49,438 nt of DNA from a virus. The notes below the pieces were generated by a model. It was not told the DNA's origin. It saw only the letters and a list, made by a program, of their open reading frames with translations, and searched no databases. Below are positions 20,498 through 49,438 of the stretch, one piece after another (position 1 is the first letter of the stretch; each line of letters starts with the position of its first letter). The stretch lies in the IMG/VR virus record IMGVR_UViG_3300028364_000049, positions 1-49,438 of that record; one strand, given 5' to 3'. The position numbers and the translations under genes were made by a program.

Positions 20498-20543
20498 TAT
20501 AGGAACTGTAAAATCATTATGTGTTGAATTTTAACATATTAAA

Positions 20544-28755: not shown

Positions 28756-29604
28756 ATGTTTAAACCGAACAGTCTATTTCTATCCGATGGATACAAAGTC
28801 GGACACAAGAGAATGTTAGCAAAAAATACCGAATTTTTGTACGGCACATTAATACCACGTTCACTAAAACACGCCCCCAAAGGAGTTAATAAAATAGTAG
28901 TATTCGGTGAACAACTTGCAATGCAATGGTTGCATGATGAATTCCAAGAAAACTTTTTCAAATTAAGTGAAGAAGATGCATTGGATTTTTCGAATGATAT
29001 GTCGGAATACTTGATGTTACCATACGATGGTGAACATTTTAAGGAACTTCACAAATTAGGATACTTACCTATACGCGTAAAATCATTACCGGAGGGAATC
29101 GAAACTTTACCGAATATCCCACATATGACATTTATTAATACAGTTAGTGGATATGCTTGGTTAACATTATACTTAGAAACTATTATAAGTTCGTTAACTT
29201 GGAAGTCTTCCACTAGTGCAACCATTGCTTTACAATATAGACGAAATCTTACAGAGTGGATATTACAAACCGATTATGATAATATCTGGTTAGCAGACTA
29301 TCTTTGTCATGATTTTTCTGCAAGGGGAATGGATCCGTTTTCAATGGTCGCATCCGGTTTAGGTCATTCACTTTCACATAGAGGATCTGATACATTATCG
29401 GTAATCCCCGCGGCAAGGTATTTTTACGATGAACCAAAATTCAACGAAGATGGTTCACGTAGAGTTCCTATCAATTCAGTAAACGCATCCGAACATTCGG
29501 TATCGACTACTCGTATATTTGAAATTTTATCAAAATTAGAAATGGGGGATTACAATCATATTATAGAAAAATATAATAAATTTAAAAATAATAACAATGA
29601 ATAA
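28756..29604 (+). CDS. nicotinamide phosphoribosyltransferase, N-terminal part (split)
   Basis: A 282-residue protein covering the first half of NAMPT: SLFLSDGYKVGHKRMLAKNT (the substrate-side N-terminus), GTLIPRS, HDFSARGMD and ASEHSVSTTRIFE. It ends in an Asn-rich tail and stops at 29604. The second half begins at 29597 in another frame. NAMPT joins nicotinamide to PRPP to give NMN; phage versions restore NAD after host defence depletes it. Confidence 0.88.
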   Translation: MFKPNSLFLSDGYKVGHKRMLAKNTEFLYGTLIPRSLKHAPKGVNKIVVFGEQLAMQWLHDEFQENFFKLSEEDALDFSNDMSEYLMLPYDGEHFKELHKLGYLPIRVKSLPEGIETLPNIPHMTFINTVSGYAWLTLYLETIISSLTWKSSTSATIALQYRRNLTEWILQTDYDNIWLADYLCHDFSARGMDPFSMVASGLGHSLSHRGSDTLSVIPAARYFYDEPKFNEDGSRRVPINSVNASEHSVSTTRIFEILSKLEMGDYNHIIEKYNKFKNNNNE

Positions 29605-30379
29605 TAAATTGAGGCTTATTGCCGAATACCAGTTTTTTAAAGAAATGATTGAAGAATTCCCAGAAGGAATATTAAGTTTGGTGAGTGACACATTCGATCT
29701 TTTTACTGTAATAACTGAAATTGTACCTAGATTAAAAGATGAAATAATGGCTCGTGATGGAAAGTTGGTAATCAGACCCGATAGTGGTGATCCTGTAGAT
29801 ATTATATGTGGATTAAATAGTAATCCGACAGTAATAGAGTCCGAACTCTCCGGTGATATTTTTGTGGGTGTCGGAAGTGAGCCACCTGAATATAAAGGTG
29901 TAATCGAAATACTTTGGGATATCTTTGGTGGAACTACAAACGAACAAGGTTACAAGGTTTTAGATTCCCACATTGGTGCAATCTATGGTGATAGTATCAA
30001 CTTGGATAGACAAATCCAAATTTATGAGAGGTTGGAATCAAAGGGATTCGCTTGTACTAATATAGTATTGGGAATCGGTTCATTTACATATCAGTTCAAT
30101 ACAAGGGACACATTCGGATACGCAGTTAAAGGATCTTGGTTCGTTGCGGATGGTAAAGAGTATAATATCTACAAAGAACCCGCAACGGATGATGGTACTA
30201 AGACATCATTAAAAGGTAAAGTTCGAGTTGACGAGGTGGATGGTGAATATGTAGTAACGACGGAATGTTCCAATGAAGAAGAACAAAATGGATTACTACG
30301 GGTTATATATGAAAACGGCAAATTTTTCAATAGAACCACCCTGACCACAATCAGGGAACGTATAAATAAAATTTCATAA
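29597..30379 (+). CDS. nicotinamide phosphoribosyltransferase, C-terminal part (split)
   Basis: A 260-residue protein with the C-terminal NAMPT blocks: RLIAEYQFFKEMIEEFPEG, SLVSDTFDLF, ARDGKLVIRPDSGDPV (phosphate binding) and GVIEILWDIFGG. Its ATG overlaps the end of the first half by 8 nt in the +1 frame, favouring translational coupling. Together the halves (282 + 260) are slightly longer than a typical NAMPT, the excess lying at the junction. Either a working two-subunit enzyme or a frameshifted gene. Confidence 0.88.
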   Translation: MNNKLRLIAEYQFFKEMIEEFPEGILSLVSDTFDLFTVITEIVPRLKDEIMARDGKLVIRPDSGDPVDIICGLNSNPTVIESELSGDIFVGVGSEPPEYKGVIEILWDIFGGTTNEQGYKVLDSHIGAIYGDSINLDRQIQIYERLESKGFACTNIVLGIGSFTYQFNTRDTFGYAVKGSWFVADGKEYNIYKEPATDDGTKTSLKGKVRVDEVDGEYVVTTECSNEEEQNGLLRVIYENGKFFNRTTLTTIRERINKIS

Positions 30380-35417: not shown

Positions 35418-35630
35418 AGTACCAACATAGAAATATTAGTATGTCAAAATGAAAATACTTAAAAATAAAAATGGCTAATTAAACGGTGCTCAGTAGCATA
35501 TTTGAGCATAAACGATATTAAATATTTAAAATCGTGCCATGTGCGATAGCAAAAATATTTATTTTTGAAAAATTATATTGGTAGTATACCCTATCAAAAT
35601 GAAATTTCATAATATTTATATACAGATATC

Positions 35631-35750
35631 GGTTATGGTATGGTGTCGTTGTGACCTTATAGAACGAACTTAATTAATAATAAAAAACTTTGGATTATGA
35701 ATACAGATAATAAACAAGCAGAAACCAAGCAATGCACTATACCAAGTGTC
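35631..35750 (+). repeat. attC-like imperfect palindrome (isolated)
   Basis: Left arm GGTTATGGTATGGTGTCGTT (from 35631) pairs with right arm AATGCACTATACCAAGTGTC (to 35750). The site at 47171-47296 shares TATGGTGTCGT, AACTTAAT and GCACTATACCA as well as ATGTGC after the right arm, so the two are homologous. The TAAC end box is not conserved here, suggesting a decayed or atypical site. Confidence 0.6.
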
Positions 35751-35912
35751 ATGTGCAGTGTTTGTGAAGGACAGGGATGGACTATTGAAATAGAGGCTAA
35801 CTGTTGTGGTAATTATAGAGAATACGGATGCTGTGGCGTACCTGAGCCTATACAGGTGCAGGTTGAATGTAAATGCGATAAGGGTTGTGTACCAAATTGC
35901 ACATATCAATAG
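35751..35912 (+). CDS. cysteine-rich zinc-ribbon protein
   Basis: A 53-residue protein starting at the ATG directly after the attC-like right arm (an upstream ATG at 35697 would run through the arm). MCSVCEGQGW is a DnaJ-like CxxCxGxG, followed by NCCGNYREYGCCG and CKCDKGCVPNC, giving ten cysteines. Probably zinc-binding. It looks like a captured gene cassette. Confidence 0.6.
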   Translation: MCSVCEGQGWTIEIEANCCGNYREYGCCGVPEPIQVQVECKCDKGCVPNCTYQ

Positions 35913-44592: not shown

Positions 44593-44883
44593 ATGACAGA
44601 TTTTATTACAGTACAAAAATGGTATGCTGAAAAATGTGACAAAACAGTAGATGAACTTGATGATTACGATAATCATATATGTAAAGTGTCGCATGAATAT
44701 ACAACAGTGATAAATAGGTTTAATAAATTTGAAAATAAACTGGAAACACCTTATTTAGATGAAATGATAAATGAATTAGACGGTTATATTGGAAGTAGCG
44801 ACAATTATTTATCAAAAAAAGCAAATGAAAAACTAGCCGAATTAAAAGCGATAAAAAAAGCAATTATTGTTATACAGTGTTAA
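44593..44883 (+). CDS. hypothetical helical protein, first gene of the cassette array
   Basis: A 96-residue acidic helical protein (TTVINRFNKFENKLETPYLD; KKANEKLAELKAIKKAI). It is followed immediately by the first attC-like palindrome. Unknown function. Confidence 0.6.
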   Translation: MTDFITVQKWYAEKCDKTVDELDDYDNHICKVSHEYTTVINRFNKFENKLETPYLDEMINELDGYIGSSDNYLSKKANEKLAELKAIKKAIIVIQC

Positions 44884-45012
44884 CTAATGGCACGGTGAAT
44901 GGCAAAATAGATTTGTGCCAATGAAATATGTTCACGAATTGCAGAATTTATTTTTTGCGGTTACAAGTACTGAACTTGAAATTAAACAAGATGTTAGTGC
45001 TTGTAGTTAACG
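44879..45012 (+). repeat. attC-like site A
   Basis: Left end GTTAACTAATGGCAC overlaps the preceding stop codon; right end GTGCTTGTAGTTAACG. The outer TTAACTA/TAGTTAA boxes are complementary. The 90-nt interior includes a possible 29-codon ORF (44921-45010). Weaker internal pairing than sites C, I and K. Confidence 0.5.
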
Positions 45013-45044
45013 AATAGTAATAAGAACAGTAAAAAATACGGATT

Positions 45045-45281
45045 ATGATACACGAACTTAAAATTAAAAATGAATACTTATTGGCAGTGATTGACGGTAG
45101 CAAAACCTTTGAATTACGAAAGGATGACCGAGATTATAAAGTAGGAGACTATTTACACTTGCAAGGATATCACAATGGTAAATATAACCACCTTGAGACT
45201 GTTAAGGAAATAACCTACATATACAGAGGTGGTGAATATGGGCTCGAAAAAGGTTTTGCGATATTAGGACTTAAAATGTAG
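45045..45281 (+). CDS. DUF3850/ASCH-PUA-like protein
   Basis: A 78-residue protein: IHELKIKNEYLLAVIDGSKT, FELRKDDRDYKVGDYLHLQG and a terminal YGLEKGFAILGL. This is the DUF3850 type of the ASCH/PUA-like fold, thought to bind RNA or modified bases. Common in phages and mobile elements. Here it is a cassette gene. Confidence 0.8.
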   Translation: MIHELKIKNEYLLAVIDGSKTFELRKDDRDYKVGDYLHLQGYHNGKYNHLETVKEITYIYRGGEYGLEKGFAILGLKM

Positions 45282-45302
45282 TATTATTTATTGATTTTAT
45301 TA

Positions 45303-45377
45303 CGTGTTAGCATTAGTTAAACTTTAACATTTTATATTAGGAATTGTAAAATACAATTCATACTTTAGTAGGGTAAT
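45303..45377 (+). promoter_or_regulatory. half attC-like site fused to a phage promoter repeat
   Basis: CGTGTTAGCATTAGTTAAAC (right end of an attC-like site, also present at 45696-45715 apart from one base) runs into AACTTTAACATTTTATATTA-GG and TACTTTAG (45361-45368). A cassette junction has thus been joined to a promoter of the phage's own family. Confidence 0.65.
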
Positions 45378-45396
45378 AAGAAAAGATATAGAAATT

Positions 45397-45612
45397 ATGA
45401 TTAACGAAAAAACTTTATTAGAAACCGAAATTCAGCCATCTCTTTTAGGTGATGTTAGCATTAGTGCTTTAACGGAAATACTTAAAAGCGATTCAGTTTA
45501 TAGACTGCTTAGATATGGTGTTAAATCGCCATCAGGTAGTGGAATGGATGATTGTGAAGATGATTGTTATTATGAGCTATATAATCTTGTTTGTGAACTT
45601 CGCAAGCATTGA
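45397..45612 (+). CDS. hypothetical cassette protein
   Basis: A 71-residue acidic protein (LSDSVYRLLRYGV-like middle; CEDDCYYELYNLVCELRKH end) with the leader GATATAGAAATTATG from the phage promoter. Its TGA is part of the next attC-like site. Unknown function. Confidence 0.55.
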   Translation: MINEKTLLETEIQPSLLGDVSISALTEILKSDSVYRLLRYGVKSPSGSGMDDCEDDCYYELYNLVCELRKH

Positions 45613-45706
45613 TGCTAACGCATTGTGTATGGCAAGTAGCCGAAGCACTAAGATTGAATTAAAAACTGAATATTAATAGGCTATTTGCTATACACGTTGT
45701 TAGCAT
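45612..45706 (+). repeat. attC-like site C
   Basis: TGCTAAC + GCATT + GTGTATGGCAAGTAGCC on the left; on the right, GGCTATTTGCTATACAC + GTT + GTTAGCA. End boxes are perfectly complementary, inner arms match at 15 of 17 with both mismatches G-T, and the unpaired spacer differs in length (5 vs 3). Central loop about 37 nt. One of the best examples. Confidence 0.75.
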
Positions 45707-45724
45707 TAGTTAAACTTAACAAAA

Positions 45725-45961
45725 ATGGAAAACACAAAAGGATTAGCGACAGGTGACTTAGACTGCCAAGGAAATAAAATTTATTATGAAACAAGTAAAT
45801 TAAAATTACCTGACGGAACGATTGGTAAAATAATGTTTGATACAGGTCAATTAGCTGCCTACTTTGCTAAGTGGGAAGATGGAGGCTATATAGTAGAAAC
45901 TGATGGTATAAATAATCACAAATCATTTTATTTACGTGAATGTGAGGTTGTCACTAATTAA
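45725..45961 (+). CDS. hypothetical cassette protein
   Basis: A 78-residue strand-rich protein (TGDLDCQGNKIYYETSKLKL; DTGQLAAYFAKWEDGGYIVE). Bounded by attC-like sites on both sides. Unknown function. Confidence 0.55.
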   Translation: MENTKGLATGDLDCQGNKIYYETSKLKLPDGTIGKIMFDTGQLAAYFAKWEDGGYIVETDGINNHKSFYLRECEVVTN

Positions 45962-46050
45962 TGCTAACGGCAAAGTATATGGTTAGTGCACCTACCACAA
46001 ACTTTAAATTAAGCACCGACCTTCATTGGCGCATTAACTATATACAGTGC
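45961..46050 (+). repeat. attC-like site D (right box missing)
   Basis: TGCTAAC then GTATATGGTTAGTGC on the left; GCATTAACTATATAC on the right pairs with it (mismatches G-T). The expected GTTAGCA box is absent after the right arm, where TATATACTGAGCGG appears instead. Confidence 0.6.
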
Positions 46051-46089
46051 TATATACTGAGCGGATTAATTAACTAAAATTTTAATAAA

Positions 46090-46380
46090 ATGACAAAGCA
46101 AGAATTTAAGAACGAGTATTTAAAAAACGCTTTCTTTTGGGTAAATGAAGAAAACCATATTAAAATACAAGAAATAATGCAAGAGTTTGGCGTTAGATGT
46201 GTTACTGGAAGTGGATTTATAAAATGGCACGAAGGTTTCAAAAACCTATGTACGTTTCCGCCAAACGGTTTTACAGGACACGACTTTTACCAAAAAGTAG
46301 ATATGTGGATTCCAGATGCAAGATATGGTGAACCTAAAAATATAGAGCGTTTTTATAAAGATTATGAAGCACTATCGTAG
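46090..46380 (+). CDS. hypothetical cassette protein
   Basis: A 96-residue protein (FKNEYLKNAFFWVNEENHIK ... HEGFKNLCTFPPNGFTGHDF) rich in aromatic residues. Unknown family. TAG stop followed by CATTGTATATAACGG, the left end of the next site. Confidence 0.58.
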   Translation: MTKQEFKNEYLKNAFFWVNEENHIKIQEIMQEFGVRCVTGSGFIKWHEGFKNLCTFPPNGFTGHDFYQKVDMWIPDARYGEPKNIERFYKDYEALS

Positions 46381-46386
46381 CATTGT

Positions 46387-46478
46387 ATATAACGGTTGAG
46401 GATAAGAACAGTTGCCTTGTAAATACTACTCAATTAATCAGAAATGCTGATGGCAATTGCTTTTAGCCTTTGTTATAA
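46387..46478 (+). repeat. attC-like site E
   Basis: ATATAAC + GGTTG + AGGATAAGAACAGTTGCC on the left; GGCAATTGCTTTTAGCCT + TT + GTTATAA on the right. Six of seven end-box bases pair and the spacer is again 5 vs 2. Confidence 0.7.
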
Positions 46479-46490
46479 AACGTTTTTATT

Positions 46491-46661
46491 ATGGAACTTA
46501 CAGACAGAGAATTAGCCCTAAGATGGTGGAATAGAAAATCCATTCAAGAAAGTACTGAACTTGCAAAACAAGCAAAATTTCCAGTGGAAAATAGAGATTA
46601 TAATACATTGACAGGTAATGAAGTTGAATGGATTTGGCGTAACCAACCGTACAACTCTTAA
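46491..46661 (+). CDS. small cassette protein
   Basis: A 56-residue protein (MELTDRELALRWWNRKSIQE ... NEVEWIWRNQPYN). Amphipathic helices with several Trp. Unknown function. Follows site E by 12 nt. Confidence 0.55.
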   Translation: MELTDRELALRWWNRKSIQESTELAKQAKFPVENRDYNTLTGNEVEWIWRNQPYNS

Positions 46662-46664
46662 ATG

Positions 46665-46693
46665 TTTTATAACGCTGAGTATAAGAAGCGTTG
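46665..46693 (+). repeat. truncated attC-like site F
   Basis: TTTTATAACGCTGAGTATAA has the usual left end, but the element is cut short: AACGCT/AGCGTT forms a small hairpin and coding sequence of another gene begins at once. Confidence 0.5.
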
Positions 46694-46831
46694 AGAGGTA
46701 CGAACAATGGTTTTTATGGTCAAAGAATTTCTAAAGAGGAATTTGAAACGGTTTATAAGAGAAAAGTAAACTACTCTTTTGGAAAAGATAAAGCTTTAAA
46801 TATAGTAGAAAGATATAGTTATGATAATTGA
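46691..46831 (+). pseudogene. 5'-truncated gene fused to a partial attC-like site
   Basis: An open frame without ATG (only TTG 46691) encodes NNGFYGQRISKEEFETVYKR and continues to TGA at 46829-46831. Codon choice and composition look genuine, so this is probably the 3' remnant of a longer gene whose 5' end was lost in a cassette rearrangement. It overlaps the next ATG. Confidence 0.5.
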
Positions 46832-47027
46832 AATAAAATACAACAAAAACTATCAATGGTATGAGTTATGGCAACATTTCTTAAATAATCCAAAAGATAT
46901 ACTTTACCCAATAAATTATAGTAATAATATATGGCATTGCTATTCAAAAGATTTTTTGATTAAAATGGCAATAGAAAAATTTAAAATTAATTATTATCAA
47001 ATAAAATTTACAAATGGCAAAGACTAA
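46821..47027 (+). CDS. hypothetical protein, possibly paired with an RHH protein
   Basis: A 68-residue protein rich in Tyr, Trp and Asn (KYNKNYQWYELWQHFLNNPK). It overlaps the downstream RHH gene by 14 nt, an arrangement like toxin-antitoxin or autoregulated pairs often found in gene cassettes. Function unknown. Confidence 0.52.
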   Translation: MIIEIKYNKNYQWYELWQHFLNNPKDILYPINYSNNIWHCYSKDFLIKMAIEKFKINYYQIKFTNGKD

Positions 47028-47163
47028 AAAAGTAACGGTATCAATGACCGAAGAAACTAAACAGAAAGCACTTGATTTATCTGTTTTAGTGTTAGGAACT
47101 GAAAACATAAGCGGTTACATAAGCTACTTAATAAACAAAGCTCATTTAGAATCCGAAAAGTAG
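47014..47163 (+). CDS. ribbon-helix-helix protein
   Basis: A 49-residue protein: strand KKVTVSMTEETKQKALDLSV then GTENISGYISYLINKA, the CopG/RHH pattern. Overlaps the upstream gene by 14 nt; possible antitoxin-type regulator. Confidence 0.65.
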   Translation: MAKTKKVTVSMTEETKQKALDLSVLVLGTENISGYISYLINKAHLESEK

Positions 47164-47170
47164 TATTAAA

Positions 47171-47296
47171 GGTAACGGATGGTGGTATGGTGTCGTAGCG
47201 GATTAAATGCACGAACCTTTGAATAATAACAGAACTTAATAAACAAAATGAATGATTGATTTAAACGAAAAACCGCTATGCACTATACCACGTGTT
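47171..47296 (+). repeat. attC-like site G, right arm reaching into a coding frame
   Basis: GGTAAC + GGATG + GTGGTATGGTGTCGTAGCGG on the left; CCGCTATGCACTATACCAC + GTGTTATGTGC on the right. The right arm lies downstream of an ATG (47252) that is in frame with the methyltransferase, which suggests that ATG 47297, directly after the site, is the real start. Confidence 0.7.
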
Positions 47297-48073
47297 ATGT
47301 GCTGGGCGGTTGATAATCTAGAACTTCTTAAATCGCAACCTAACGAAAGCGTTGATTTAATTTATAGTGATATACTTTATGGAACAGGTAGAGATTTTGG
47401 TGAATACAAAGACTTGAAACCAAAACAAGATGTGATTGAAAGCCACTACCTACCAAGACTTATTGAAATGAAACGAGTACTAAAACAAAACGGTTCTATT
47501 TACTTACAAATGGACACGAGAATTAATCATTGGATGCGTATTTTGATGGATAAGGTTTTTGGGTATGATAACTTCCAAAATGAAATCGTATGGGCTTATA
47601 GAACGCAAGGATTTAGTAAAAGCAAATGGTCTGAAAAGCACGATGTAGTTTTATTTTACTCTAAAGGAAAATCGTTTACCTTTAATCTTGAAGATGTAAG
47701 AGAAAACGAAATTGGCGAAAGCACACAAAAGAGGTGGCATAAAGAGATAAAAGAGTTTGGAAAGATACCAACTAAAAAGAATGGTAAAACTTACTGGAAT
47801 AGCCCATACTCACCACCTCGTGATTGGATTGATATGAATGCTTTACCGCAAGCCCATACAGAACGAAATGGTTATCCTACCCAAAAACCGAAAGAGTTAA
47901 TTAAACGTTTTGTTTTGGCTTCAAGTAACGAAAATGATGTTGTAGCAGATTATTATTTAGGTAGTGGCACTACTGCCGAAGTTTGCAAAGAGTTAAATAG
48001 AAACTTTATTGGTTGCGATATAAACCCAAACGCTATTGAATTAACTAAAACTCGATTAAATGCAGTAACGTAG
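47297..48073 (+). CDS. beta-class DNA methyltransferase (divergent motif IV)
   Basis: A 258-residue N6-adenine/N4-cytosine-type methyltransferase with the beta order: motif IV first, SAM-binding motif I last. NEIVWAYRTQGFSKSKWSEK and YPTQKPKELIKRFVLAS are typical family blocks, and VADYYLGSGTTAEV is motif I, followed by FIGCDINPNAI. Motif IV reads SDILYG where active enzymes usually have DPPY. ATG 47297 is chosen because the longer form from 47252 runs through an attC-like arm. Probably an orphan methylase protecting phage DNA, if active. Confidence 0.82.
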   Translation: MCWAVDNLELLKSQPNESVDLIYSDILYGTGRDFGEYKDLKPKQDVIESHYLPRLIEMKRVLKQNGSIYLQMDTRINHWMRILMDKVFGYDNFQNEIVWAYRTQGFSKSKWSEKHDVVLFYSKGKSFTFNLEDVRENEIGESTQKRWHKEIKEFGKIPTKKNGKTYWNSPYSPPRDWIDMNALPQAHTERNGYPTQKPKELIKRFVLASSNENDVVADYYLGSGTTAEVCKELNRNFIGCDINPNAIELTKTRLNAVT

Positions 48074-48081
48074 CCTTGTAC

Positions 48082-48130
48082 ATAACGTTGAGTGTAACAC
48101 ATCGTTTTAATGTGTGTTACATATTGTTAC
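48082..48130 (+). repeat. attC-like site H (compact)
   Basis: ATAACGTTGAGTGTAACACAT, a 7-nt loop, and ATGTGTGTTACATATTGTTAC form a short hairpin of the same general design. Confidence 0.55.
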
Positions 48131-48166
48131 CTACTGTGGCGACTTAATAAACTAAAACTTTGATAA

Positions 48167-48406
48167 ATGACTGAATTAAATAAAAAGGCTATGGATATAA
48201 ACGATGAAATAGATATGCAAGACCTTAAACATAAGGTAAAAGAGTTGCAAGAAAAGAACGAAGAATTACAGGTTGAATTAGATATAACTAAAGAGCAATT
48301 AATTTTATCTGGTGATGTGAAACCGTTAAAGGAGGATGAAGAAAAATGCCCTTGTAAACAACCATTTAGCCAGACGTGGTGTGAAACACACGAAAGATGG
48401 ACTTAA
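48167..48406 (+). CDS. coiled-coil cassette protein with Cys cluster
   Basis: A 79-residue protein: a coiled coil (residues 14-46, LKHKVKELQEKNEELQVELD) and a C-terminal Cys/His cluster (KCPCKQPF...WCETHERW) that could bind zinc. Unknown function. Confidence 0.6.
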   Translation: MTELNKKAMDINDEIDMQDLKHKVKELQEKNEELQVELDITKEQLILSGDVKPLKEDEEKCPCKQPFSQTWCETHERWT

Positions 48407-48420
48407 CTTTTTTATGTTTT

Positions 48421-48516
48421 ACAACGTGTTTGAATATGGTGAGTAGCCGACACCTAAAACTTGGCTATGAAAAATGAATGTTTAATCGGCTATTCACTAT
48501 ATTTTGTGTTGTGTGT
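48421..48516 (+). repeat. attC-like site I
   Basis: ACAAC + GTGTTTGA + ATATGGTGAGTAGCCGA on the left; TCGGCTATTCACTATAT + TTTGT + GTTGT on the right. 15 of 17 arm bases match, both mismatches being G-T; loop about 35 nt. Confidence 0.75.
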
Positions 48517-48531
48517 CGTTAATTTAGGAAT

Positions 48532-48726
48532 ATGAAAAATACGACAGTAAAAGAATTAATTGAAATATTAAATGGAATGAACCCTGATGCAATAGTTTGT
48601 CATTTGGAATTAGAGAAAGATACAACTATTTACAGTTCATTTGAAATATGTAGACAATATGATAATGTTACCTATATAGATGATGATGGTGATGATGTTA
48701 AAGGTGATGTGGTAGCTATATACTAA
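48532..48726 (+). CDS. small acidic cassette protein
   Basis: A 64-residue acidic protein (TVKELIEILNGMNPDAIVCH ... YIDDDGDDVKGDVVAIY). The start 'TVKELIEILNGMNPDA' resembles small phage proteins with a ferredoxin-like or KTKEL helix; function unknown. Confidence 0.6.
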   Translation: MKNTTVKELIEILNGMNPDAIVCHLELEKDTTIYSSFEICRQYDNVTYIDDDGDDVKGDVVAIY

Positions 48727-48730
48727 TGGC

Positions 48731-48859
48731 ACACAACGTGTTGTGTATGATTTCGGGCGTAAATAAGTAGTGAATTTAATAGATAAAAACAAAATTATGA
48801 GTGAGCAAAAATTTAGTAAAAAAACAGAAAGTAAGCCTGAATTATATACATTGTTAGTC
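48731..48859 (+). repeat. attC-like site J, right arm in coding sequence
   Basis: ACACAACGTGTTGTGTATGA with GAATTATATACATTGTTAGTC as a weak right arm inside the next gene's frame. Also a compact ACACAAC/GTTGTGT hairpin at 48731-48746. Weaker than sites C, I and K. Confidence 0.45.
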
Positions 48860-49066
48860 ACACGTGCGAAAGTAAGAATGTGGCAAATTGATAGTGTGCT
48901 TACAGGAATAAGATATAGGATTGAGGTTAAAAAATGGTATGGATGGGTTCAGCCATCAATTTCTTATTCAGAGGATGGTCAGTTCTACAATAAATTAGAA
49001 GCTGAAAAATGGTTTAAATATTTAAGTGGCGAAAAAGATAAAAAGAAATTGATAGCGTGGGCGTAG
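48797..49066 (+). CDS. hypothetical cassette protein
   Basis: An 89-residue protein from ATG 48797 (alternatives: 48770, or 48878 just after the putative right arm). The region from MWQIDSVLTGIRYRIEVKKW onward has the look of the real domain (strand-rich, Trp-rich, KWYGWVQPSIS). Unknown function. Confidence 0.55.
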   Translation: MSEQKFSKKTESKPELYTLLVTRAKVRMWQIDSVLTGIRYRIEVKKWYGWVQPSISYSEDGQFYNKLEAEKWFKYLSGEKDKKKLIAWA

Positions 49067-49072
49067 CATTGT

Positions 49073-49203
49073 GCCTAACGGAATGAATAAGAATAGTAGC
49101 GATTAAAAACACAGAGTTATGAAAATTATACATTACTTATATTGGGCGAAAAACTTAGTTAATATGCTATGGTGGAAGCTATTATTTTTATTTGGTGTTA
49201 GGC
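49073..49203 (+). repeat. attC-like site K
   Basis: GCCTAAC + GGAATG + AATAAGAATAGTAGC on the left; GCTATTATTTTTATT + TGGT + GTTAGGC on the right. The end boxes match the integron R''/R' consensus (RYYYAAC and GTTRRRY) exactly; 13 of 15 arm bases pair with both mismatches G-T. The right half lies inside the reading frame starting at 49119. Confidence 0.78.
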
Positions 49204-49430
49204 GTAGTGCGTTGCCTATACCTAAAGGAATGTACTGTTATAACCCTGATATAGAAAAGAACAAAGCAAAGAAAGACTTTAGTACATATTATATAAACCC
49301 TTGCAAATATTACAAAACTTTAGGGCGTAGATATAATGGATGTAGTTACTTAGGAATAATTACTGATGATATGACCTTTGGTGACCAATGTAAAATGTGT
49401 GGCGAGAATTATGGTGATGAAGACGAATAG
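49119..49430 (+). CDS. Cys-containing cassette protein
   Basis: A 103-residue protein: hydrophobic N-terminus (LYWAKNLVNMLWWKLLFLFG), then LPIPKGMYCYNPD, INPCKYYKTLGRRYNGCSYL and DQCKMCGENYGDE, with four Cys suited to metal binding. The attC-like right arm covers codons 21-28, so translation may instead begin at ATG 49230, which is preceded by AAAGGA. TAG is followed by CATTACGC, the likely left end of the next site, at the window edge. Confidence 0.58.
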   Translation: MKIIHYLYWAKNLVNMLWWKLLFLFGVRRSALPIPKGMYCYNPDIEKNKAKKDFSTYYINPCKYYKTLGRRYNGCSYLGIITDDMTFGDQCKMCGENYGDEDE

Positions 49431-49438
49431 CATTACGC

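Follow-up and report, generated by a model that had tools for sequence, protein, structure and literature searches.

We analyzed a window of 49,438 bases from a virus record in which, from 45.6 kb onward, small genes alternate with imperfect palindromes. This segment is likely part of a phage-encoded integron whose mobile unit is one attC-type site together with the gene or genes behind it. The array works like an integron: its sites have attC-type boxes and stems and a crossover box, and related phages add an attI-like site. It departs from the usual pattern in three features, namely the IntI-specific segment of the recombinase, extrahelical bases in the usual half of the site, and cassettes in which the gene comes before its site. 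The evidence comprises the sites and their strand bias, the cassette unit with its crossover box, and cassette exchange, together with a recombinase and an attI-like site in related phages; the genome of the window's phage would also encode a recombinase. With slightly less assurance, we consider it probable that large phages of Bacteroidota inherit a class of complete integrons of their own, made up of attI, an attC-type array, and a recombinase from which the IntI-specific segment is missing. Their cassettes would be inverted, the cassette pools of phage and host would be nearly separate, and Bacteroidota chromosomes would carry a sister class, missed by integron finders that depend on canonical IntI and attC.

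We built a covariance model (R1) from 48 outside sites (36 phage and 12 chromosomal, a mixture set by choice), using no window sequence, and searched the whole window on both strands with filters off. R1 found eight array sites at 45.6 to 49.2 kb (C, D, E, G, H, I, J, and K; E values of 1e-15 to 0.003) and one decayed site at 35.6 kb. All of these matches are on the plus strand, and the next-best match has an E value of 0.3. Across positions 44879 to 49438, three AACG...GTTR hairpins at or below -14 kcal/mol were observed, compared to a mean of 0.01 in dinucleotide shuffles. The sites, with the extent of the R1 match in parentheses, are as follows.

45616 to 45703 (45611-45707), plus strand: site C, TAACG...TGTTAG; R1 43.5 bits, E 4.3e-7; duplex -16.5 kcal/mol
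45965 to 46053 (45960-46057), plus strand: site D, right box mutated (TGCTA); E 6e-4
46390 to 46476 (46385-46480), plus strand: site E; E 2.7e-7
46670 to 46705, plus strand: F, left-box remnant (TAACGC) seen in the sequence, right arm not found; no R1 match
47173 to 47297 (47168-47302), plus strand: site G, the best of the window; R1 84.5 bits, E 9.7e-16; a conserved cassette begins exactly at its TAAC
48083 to 48130 (48078-48134), plus strand: site H, short; its TAAC ends the methyltransferase cassette; E 0.003
48422 to 48512 (48417-48516), plus strand: site I, CAACG...TGTTG; E 2.6e-6
48734 to 48857 (48729-48861), plus strand: site J; E 4.7e-7
49076 to 49201 (49071-49205), plus strand: site K; E 3.6e-7
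35622 to 35756, plus strand: decayed copy of site G and methyltransferase cassette start, boxes TATCGG / TGTCAT; E 4.8e-6; DNA match to 47270-47302

The decayed second start of a methyltransferase cassette, with its mutated boxes, spans 35622 to 35912, 11 kb 5' of the array. An original prediction, made from the letters of the window alone, had placed a palindrome array at the window's end, and R1, being independent of the window, agrees with the shuffles that this array is real. The five sites ranked highest there (C, E, G, I, and K) were all matched by R1. Three further proposed sites, A (44.88 kb), B (45.30 kb), and F (46.67 kb), gained no such support, B being a right half only and F a left half only.

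The sites share one plan: TAACG, an unpaired spacer of 3 to 6 nt, a stem of about 18 pairs, a loop, the second arm, one unpaired base, and TGTTA. The boxes TAACG...TGTTA are invariant in the family, site lengths fall into sharp classes (about 125, 119, 88, and 77 nt), and neighboring sites have the same orientation in 350 of 367 cases. In the alignment of outside sites, compensatory changes keep pairing in 19 of 23 pairs, and two G.T wobbles are conserved (G10.T143 in 47 of 48 sites and G30.T128 in 44 of 48). Because conserved G.T pairs become A.C mismatches on the other strand, the plus strand folds better. When folded as single-stranded DNA, sites C, E, G, I, and K form long stems with G.T pairs, and the plus strand is more stable at all seven window sites long enough to be tested (for example, -19.1 versus -15.1 kcal/mol for G, -16.5 versus -13.4 for C, and -16.3 versus -13.6 for I). 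The same strand wins in 284 of 295 phage sites, a count that is partly due to the finder's own selection; the conserved wobbles are independent of the strand that the finder chooses. Both-strand folding and these wobbles bear out the strand-biased folding, with G opposite T, that had been read from the window, and the longer left spacer claimed there also holds (mostly 4 to 5 nt on the left versus 1 nt on the right). Like attC, the sites have complementary AAC/GTT end boxes, an unpaired spacer, and a long imperfect stem. Where attC has extrahelical bases in the 3' half of its active strand, these sites have the conserved G.T pairs instead, and the extra base that 12 of 48 sites do have, at column 27, is in the 5' half. 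One site elsewhere (contig L390, 2200 to 2337) contains a stretch resembling a tRNA T arm (GGTTCGACTCC) in its loop, possibly a tRNA inside a phage cassette.

The boundaries of the mobile unit can be read from homologous cassettes. The window's methyltransferase cassette (47173 to 48087) recurs in contig L044 at 96% DNA identity with other neighbors on both sides, and the alignment starts at the TAACG of site G, ends at the TAACG of site H, and extends no further. About 15 more distant methyltransferase homologues break off at 48086 +/- 3. Because the sites resemble one another, a tally of breakpoints from raw BLAST ends is ambiguous, and we used instead the identity of the upstream and downstream sites in each cassette family. 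The site before the gene has mean identities per family of 0.77, 0.74, 0.95, 0.93, and 0.81, compared to 0.57, 0.61, 0.75, 0.64, and 0.54 for the next site and 0.59 for random expectation. Since the site before the gene is conserved with it and the next site is near random, we place the crossover in the left box, TAAC; judged from this sequence conservation, the mobile unit is a site plus the gene behind it. IntI cuts the bottom strand of attC between AA and C of 5'-AAC. A crossover in the left box matches this chemistry, with the plus strand of the window in the role of the attC bottom strand, and, as in integron cassettes, the AAC/GTT box on the active strand marks the boundary. The original prediction that the sites divide mobile cassettes is thus borne out by the methyltransferase cassette among its other neighbors in L044. 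Its assignment of each palindrome to the gene before it had to be reversed, as site conservation and the L044 boundaries both join the site to the gene behind.

In related phages, the array ends at an attI-like TAAC followed directly by TATTATATATA, then an IntI-like tyrosine recombinase gene on the cassette strand. On five of 25 long array-bearing viral contigs, the array is followed at its 3' end by a tyrosine recombinase gene in the orientation of the cassettes, and a search seeded with these five recombinases yielded 80 phage loci. Around the 80 genes, 292 sites lie upstream on the plus strand, 2 upstream on the minus strand, and 13 downstream; at least two upstream sites are present in 42 of the 44 loci having at least 8 kb of upstream sequence. 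On phage contigs of 127 to 362 kb (G009, G032, G281, and G283), most sites are in one array adjoining the recombinase gene. A terminase is encoded on 14 of 25 recombinase-bearing phage contigs, which indicates that these are true phages. The element TAACTATTATATAT, allowing up to three mismatches, occurs in 75 of 78 loci, 27 to 95 nt 5' of the recombinase gene and after the last cassette, compared to 14 of 211 control stretches. Comparison of the 40 most similar pairs of loci gives an identity of 0.91 to the right of TAAC and 0.60 to the left. The TAACTATTATATAT element therefore looks as attI should, and we regard it as a putative attI-like site.

The phage recombinases keep the conserved motifs of tyrosine recombinases and form a single clade (21 of 22 rows, support 100/99). 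This clade, together with IntI and the chromosomal array recombinases, is split from Bacteroidota XerC/XerD with support of 100/98, in a tree that contained no archaeal XerA. Against an integron-integrase profile with a cutoff of 265 bits, the phage recombinases score 139 to 155 bits and the chromosomal ones 179 to 222. In the GenBank phage collection, no recombinase exceeded 60% identity to the phage clade.

In an even sample of 198 Bacteroidota genomes, 111 have the same sites. Sites were present in 47 of 51 genomes encoding a related recombinase versus 35 of 97 others (Fisher p 9e-12). These chromosomes show the classical integron order of gene and then site, and the recombinase gene, where it lies within the fetched stretch, is usually upstream and reads toward the array. 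Directly behind it, in most of eight cases examined, is a sequence like ATATAAACGA followed by GTTRGCRG; read on the site strand, this is YAAC followed by TCGTTTATAT, near the phage attI. Taking the longest ATG frame per cassette, we counted 176 phage cassette genes with the site strand and 3 against it on recombinase contigs and 225 and 7 on other viral contigs, for a total of 401 to 10, whereas 134 chromosomal cassette genes run against the site strand and 18 with it. Earlier counts agree. The possibility that gene direction relative to the sites is alike in chromosomes and phages was ruled out by the open reading frames (ORFs) of L344. Seen from the sites, genes and intI diverge in classical integrons, the recombinase is followed by the genes in tandem in Bacteroidota chromosomes, and the genes are followed by the recombinase in tandem in phages. 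A gene followed by its own attC and pointing away from the integrase is thus the arrangement of the chromosomal relatives and not of the phages. A plausible reason for the inversion is that a phage operon requires one strand for everything. Of 54 cassette families, just 2 contain members from both phages and chromosomes, a small sample in which the two pools seem mostly separate. One cassette of phage polarity stands in a chromosomal array (L464, near 11614), and its gene family is otherwise found in phages; a transfer from phage to host is possible. Long chromosomal arrays of these sites also occur together with a recombinase missing the IntI-specific segment (e.g., G132 C1 114818-141937 and G006 C13), and the recombinase of F. 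silvisoli (L344) carries a long fused extension at its N terminus (580 aa).

Under the phage-encoded integron proposed here, an IntI/XerA-like tyrosine recombinase of the phage would bind a site folded from the better-folding strand, here the coding strand, cut the left box between TAA and CG, and move the cassette as a site plus its gene. New cassettes would enter at attI (TAAC followed by TATTATATATA), past the last cassette and ahead of the recombinase gene, with the phage enzyme joining attC-type sites to TAACTATTATATATA. Because the cassette genes and the recombinase all run in one direction, the array could be read as one phage operon, presumably through into the recombinase gene. The original prediction spoke of recombination sites of mobile cassettes captured by a phage. 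The attC type, the mobile cassettes, and the phage genome stand; canonical attC sites, gene-then-site polarity, and mere capture do not, and "captured" is too weak, given that related phages encode a recombinase and an attI-like site beside the array and that these recombinases are one phage clade. The same sites beside other genes, for which a search had been advised, turned up in Bacteroidota genomes, in viral contigs, and in L044. An IntI-like tyrosine recombinase, also advised as a target, is absent from the window and present beside arrays in related phages, with related enzymes in Bacteroidota genomes.

A different explanation, which we consider unlikely, is that the array is a passive cluster of attC sites lacking integron-integrases (CALIN), its cassettes taken from the host or another phage and its recombinase supplied by others, with no machinery of its own. 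This would suit a window without a recombinase, as well as the 20 of 25 array-bearing viral contigs that likewise have none, though these are fragments; Bacteroidota hosts have the same sites and related recombinases, and phage CALINs without integrases have been published (PMC9892861). Plain capture from a host, however, would retain host polarity, which the counts above (401:10 in phages versus 18:134 in chromosomes) contradict; the near absence of cassette families common to phage and chromosome and the recombinase adjoining the array in related phages also argue against it. Far less probable is that the hairpins are mainly RNA elements (terminators, mRNA ends, or translation control) that only look like recombination sites. 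They are intergenic, and G.T (G.U) pairs give the coding strand, which is that of the RNA, the more stable fold, but a search of the array region matched no Rfam family, chromosomal sites are on the opposite strand relative to transcription, cassette breakpoints coincide with the boxes, and the presence of sites follows the recombinase across genomes. Least probable of all is another form of mobility, either single-strand transposition of the IS200/IS605 kind, to which single-strand hairpins would lend themselves, or homologous recombination between similar sites that shuffles genes, given that no transposase was found among the array genes of the window, that breakpoints fall at the TAAC box rather than scattering across the similar arms, and that a dedicated tyrosine recombinase and an attI-like site are conserved beside arrays.

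Several points weigh against a phage-encoded integron. The window contains neither a recombinase nor attI, its end lying within the array, and no recombinase was found in the 25 relatives reached via nicotinamide phosphoribosyltransferase (NAMPT) or in the near relative L091, all of which are fragments. The phage recombinases lack about 42 residues, including the IntI-specific segment: matches of related-phage recombinases to TIGR02249 skip about positions 180 to 240 or 205 to 255, and 23 profile positions face 65 residues of IntI4 in 2A3V. The boundary test rests on few close cassette pairs (9 families), and its counterpart in the recombinase set has only three pairs, of which the one close pair agrees. 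Window sites D, F, and H are imperfect, and the energy-based site finder prefers the better-folding strand, so strand-bias counts lean accordingly.

The window is probably a fragment, and it ends inside the array, on TAGCATTACGC, the usual lead-in to the next TAAC. Its phage character shows in gene families for RNA ligases, an exonuclease, an endolysin, a homing endonuclease, and a glycosyltransferase. The nearest copies of its RNA ligase gene are on recombinase-bearing phages (57, 55, and 51%), and 45397 to 45612, ahead of site C, corresponds to a cassette in one such phage. An element of about 80 nt (AACTTTAACATATTAAATTAGGAATTG...TACTTTAGTAGGGTAATA) has ten copies in the window, at 20523, 21106, 23176, 34270, 37562, 38356, 39526, 39812, 42143, and 45317, several of them immediately 5' of a start codon, and is probably the phage's own promoter or leader. 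Because one copy is in the array region, mis-assembly of the array is unlikely. The NAMPT gene (28756 to 30379) consists of two overlapping frames in the window and a single frame in all 13 relatives checked; the split may be real, or a frameshift or an error in sequencing may account for it. A tRNA search of the window found none. The features in and beside the array are as follows.

45317 to 45400, plus strand: copy, within the array region, of the repeated promoter-like upstream element; nine further copies in the window
45397 to 45612, plus strand: 71-aa protein, 65% identity to a cassette protein of a recombinase-bearing phage (L363/L370)
45725 to 45961, plus strand: cassette C gene, 78 aa; ORF with no significant family
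46090 to 46380, plus strand: cassette D gene, 96 aa; ORF with no significant family
46492 to 46662, plus strand: cassette E gene, 56 aa, from the sequence
46821 to 47166, plus strand: two small genes (ORFs) between remnant F and site G, 68 aa and 48 aa, the latter ribbon-helix-helix-like by eye
47297 to 48073, plus strand: cassette G gene, N6/N4 DNA methyltransferase (Pfam PF01555, 1.9e-45)
48167 to 48406, plus strand: cassette H gene, ORF of 79 aa, coiled-coil-like
48532 to 48726, plus strand: cassette I gene, ORF of 64 aa
48797 to 49066, plus strand: cassette J gene, ORF from the sequence
49119 to 49430, plus strand: cassette K gene, ORF of 103 aa; the contig breaks after TAGCATTACGC

The ATG start of the methyltransferase gene sits within the right box of site G (GTTATG). 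Only a handful of 85 phage cassette proteins have a Pfam match, mainly DNA methyltransferases, with an RNA ligase and an acetyltransferase besides; the methyltransferases may serve to evade restriction.

Among the bacterial systems that gather and reshuffle genes, integrons are the best known. Our results suggest that a lineage of large phages has its own version, holding small and mostly unassigned genes, so that a gene-capture machine seen so far mainly in bacteria would be owned by viruses, in which its genes appear to be mounted in reverse. A phage integron would explain fast swapping of accessory genes, and its arrays would be places to seek anti-defense genes. The inverted cassettes offer a direct comparison for what sets gene direction in cassettes, and the variants of site and enzyme are useful for studying how folded sites are recognized. 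A widespread integron class also seems to have been overlooked in Bacteroidota, where 111 of 198 genomes have these sites and a large survey of complete genomes recorded one complete integron in Bacteroidetes proper (PMC9024848).

XerA acts at dif-like sites in chromosome resolution. The top solved-structure match of the phage recombinase is to recombinases of this type (NF040815; PDB 4A8E and 5HXY), but the phage gene goes with cassette arrays and branches apart from Bacteroidota XerC/D in the tree. CALINs have been described in the virulent phages TJE1, P12002L, and PH101 (PMC9892861); like the present arrays, these are phage-borne, of attC type, and often include DNA methyltransferase genes, and IntI1 recombined five of six phage attC sites tested, but no integrase was reported there. 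Polaribacter phage P12002L, a published attC-bearing Bacteroidota phage that we considered as a relative, has no site of the present family. Our search of the literature for phage-encoded or viral integrons, with preprints and most subscription journals outside its coverage, returned only this 2023 paper and general reviews. Riemerella anatipestifer is reported to take up a resistance gene independently of homology, with 27 bp before the gene and 140 bp behind it, the latter with an attC-like fold (PMC13148043, 2026). This is likewise a Bacteroidota genome, and the size fits a chromosomal cassette of the present family; the polarity is chromosomal, with the site behind the gene, unlike that of phage arrays, and the paper did not identify the recombinase. 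By this analogy, the chromosomal class could explain the Riemerella uptake. Compared to integrons proper (class 1, class 2, and Vibrio chromosomal), R1 recognized nothing on a class 2 integron array, and from its sequence features the phage and Bacteroidota site family appears distinct from canonical attC. The phage recombinase differs by the missing residues and a score below the integron-integrase cutoff, the sites by conserved G.T pairs and the extra base in the 5' half, and the cassettes by inverted genes. The phage arrays resemble integrons in having cassettes set apart by imperfect palindromes, each with an unpaired spacer and with end boxes, AAC/GTT, that are complementary, in the crossover at the AAC box of one strand, and in the place of the recombinase and attI, which adjoin the array at one end and, judged by the orientation of the sites, at the same end as in integrons.

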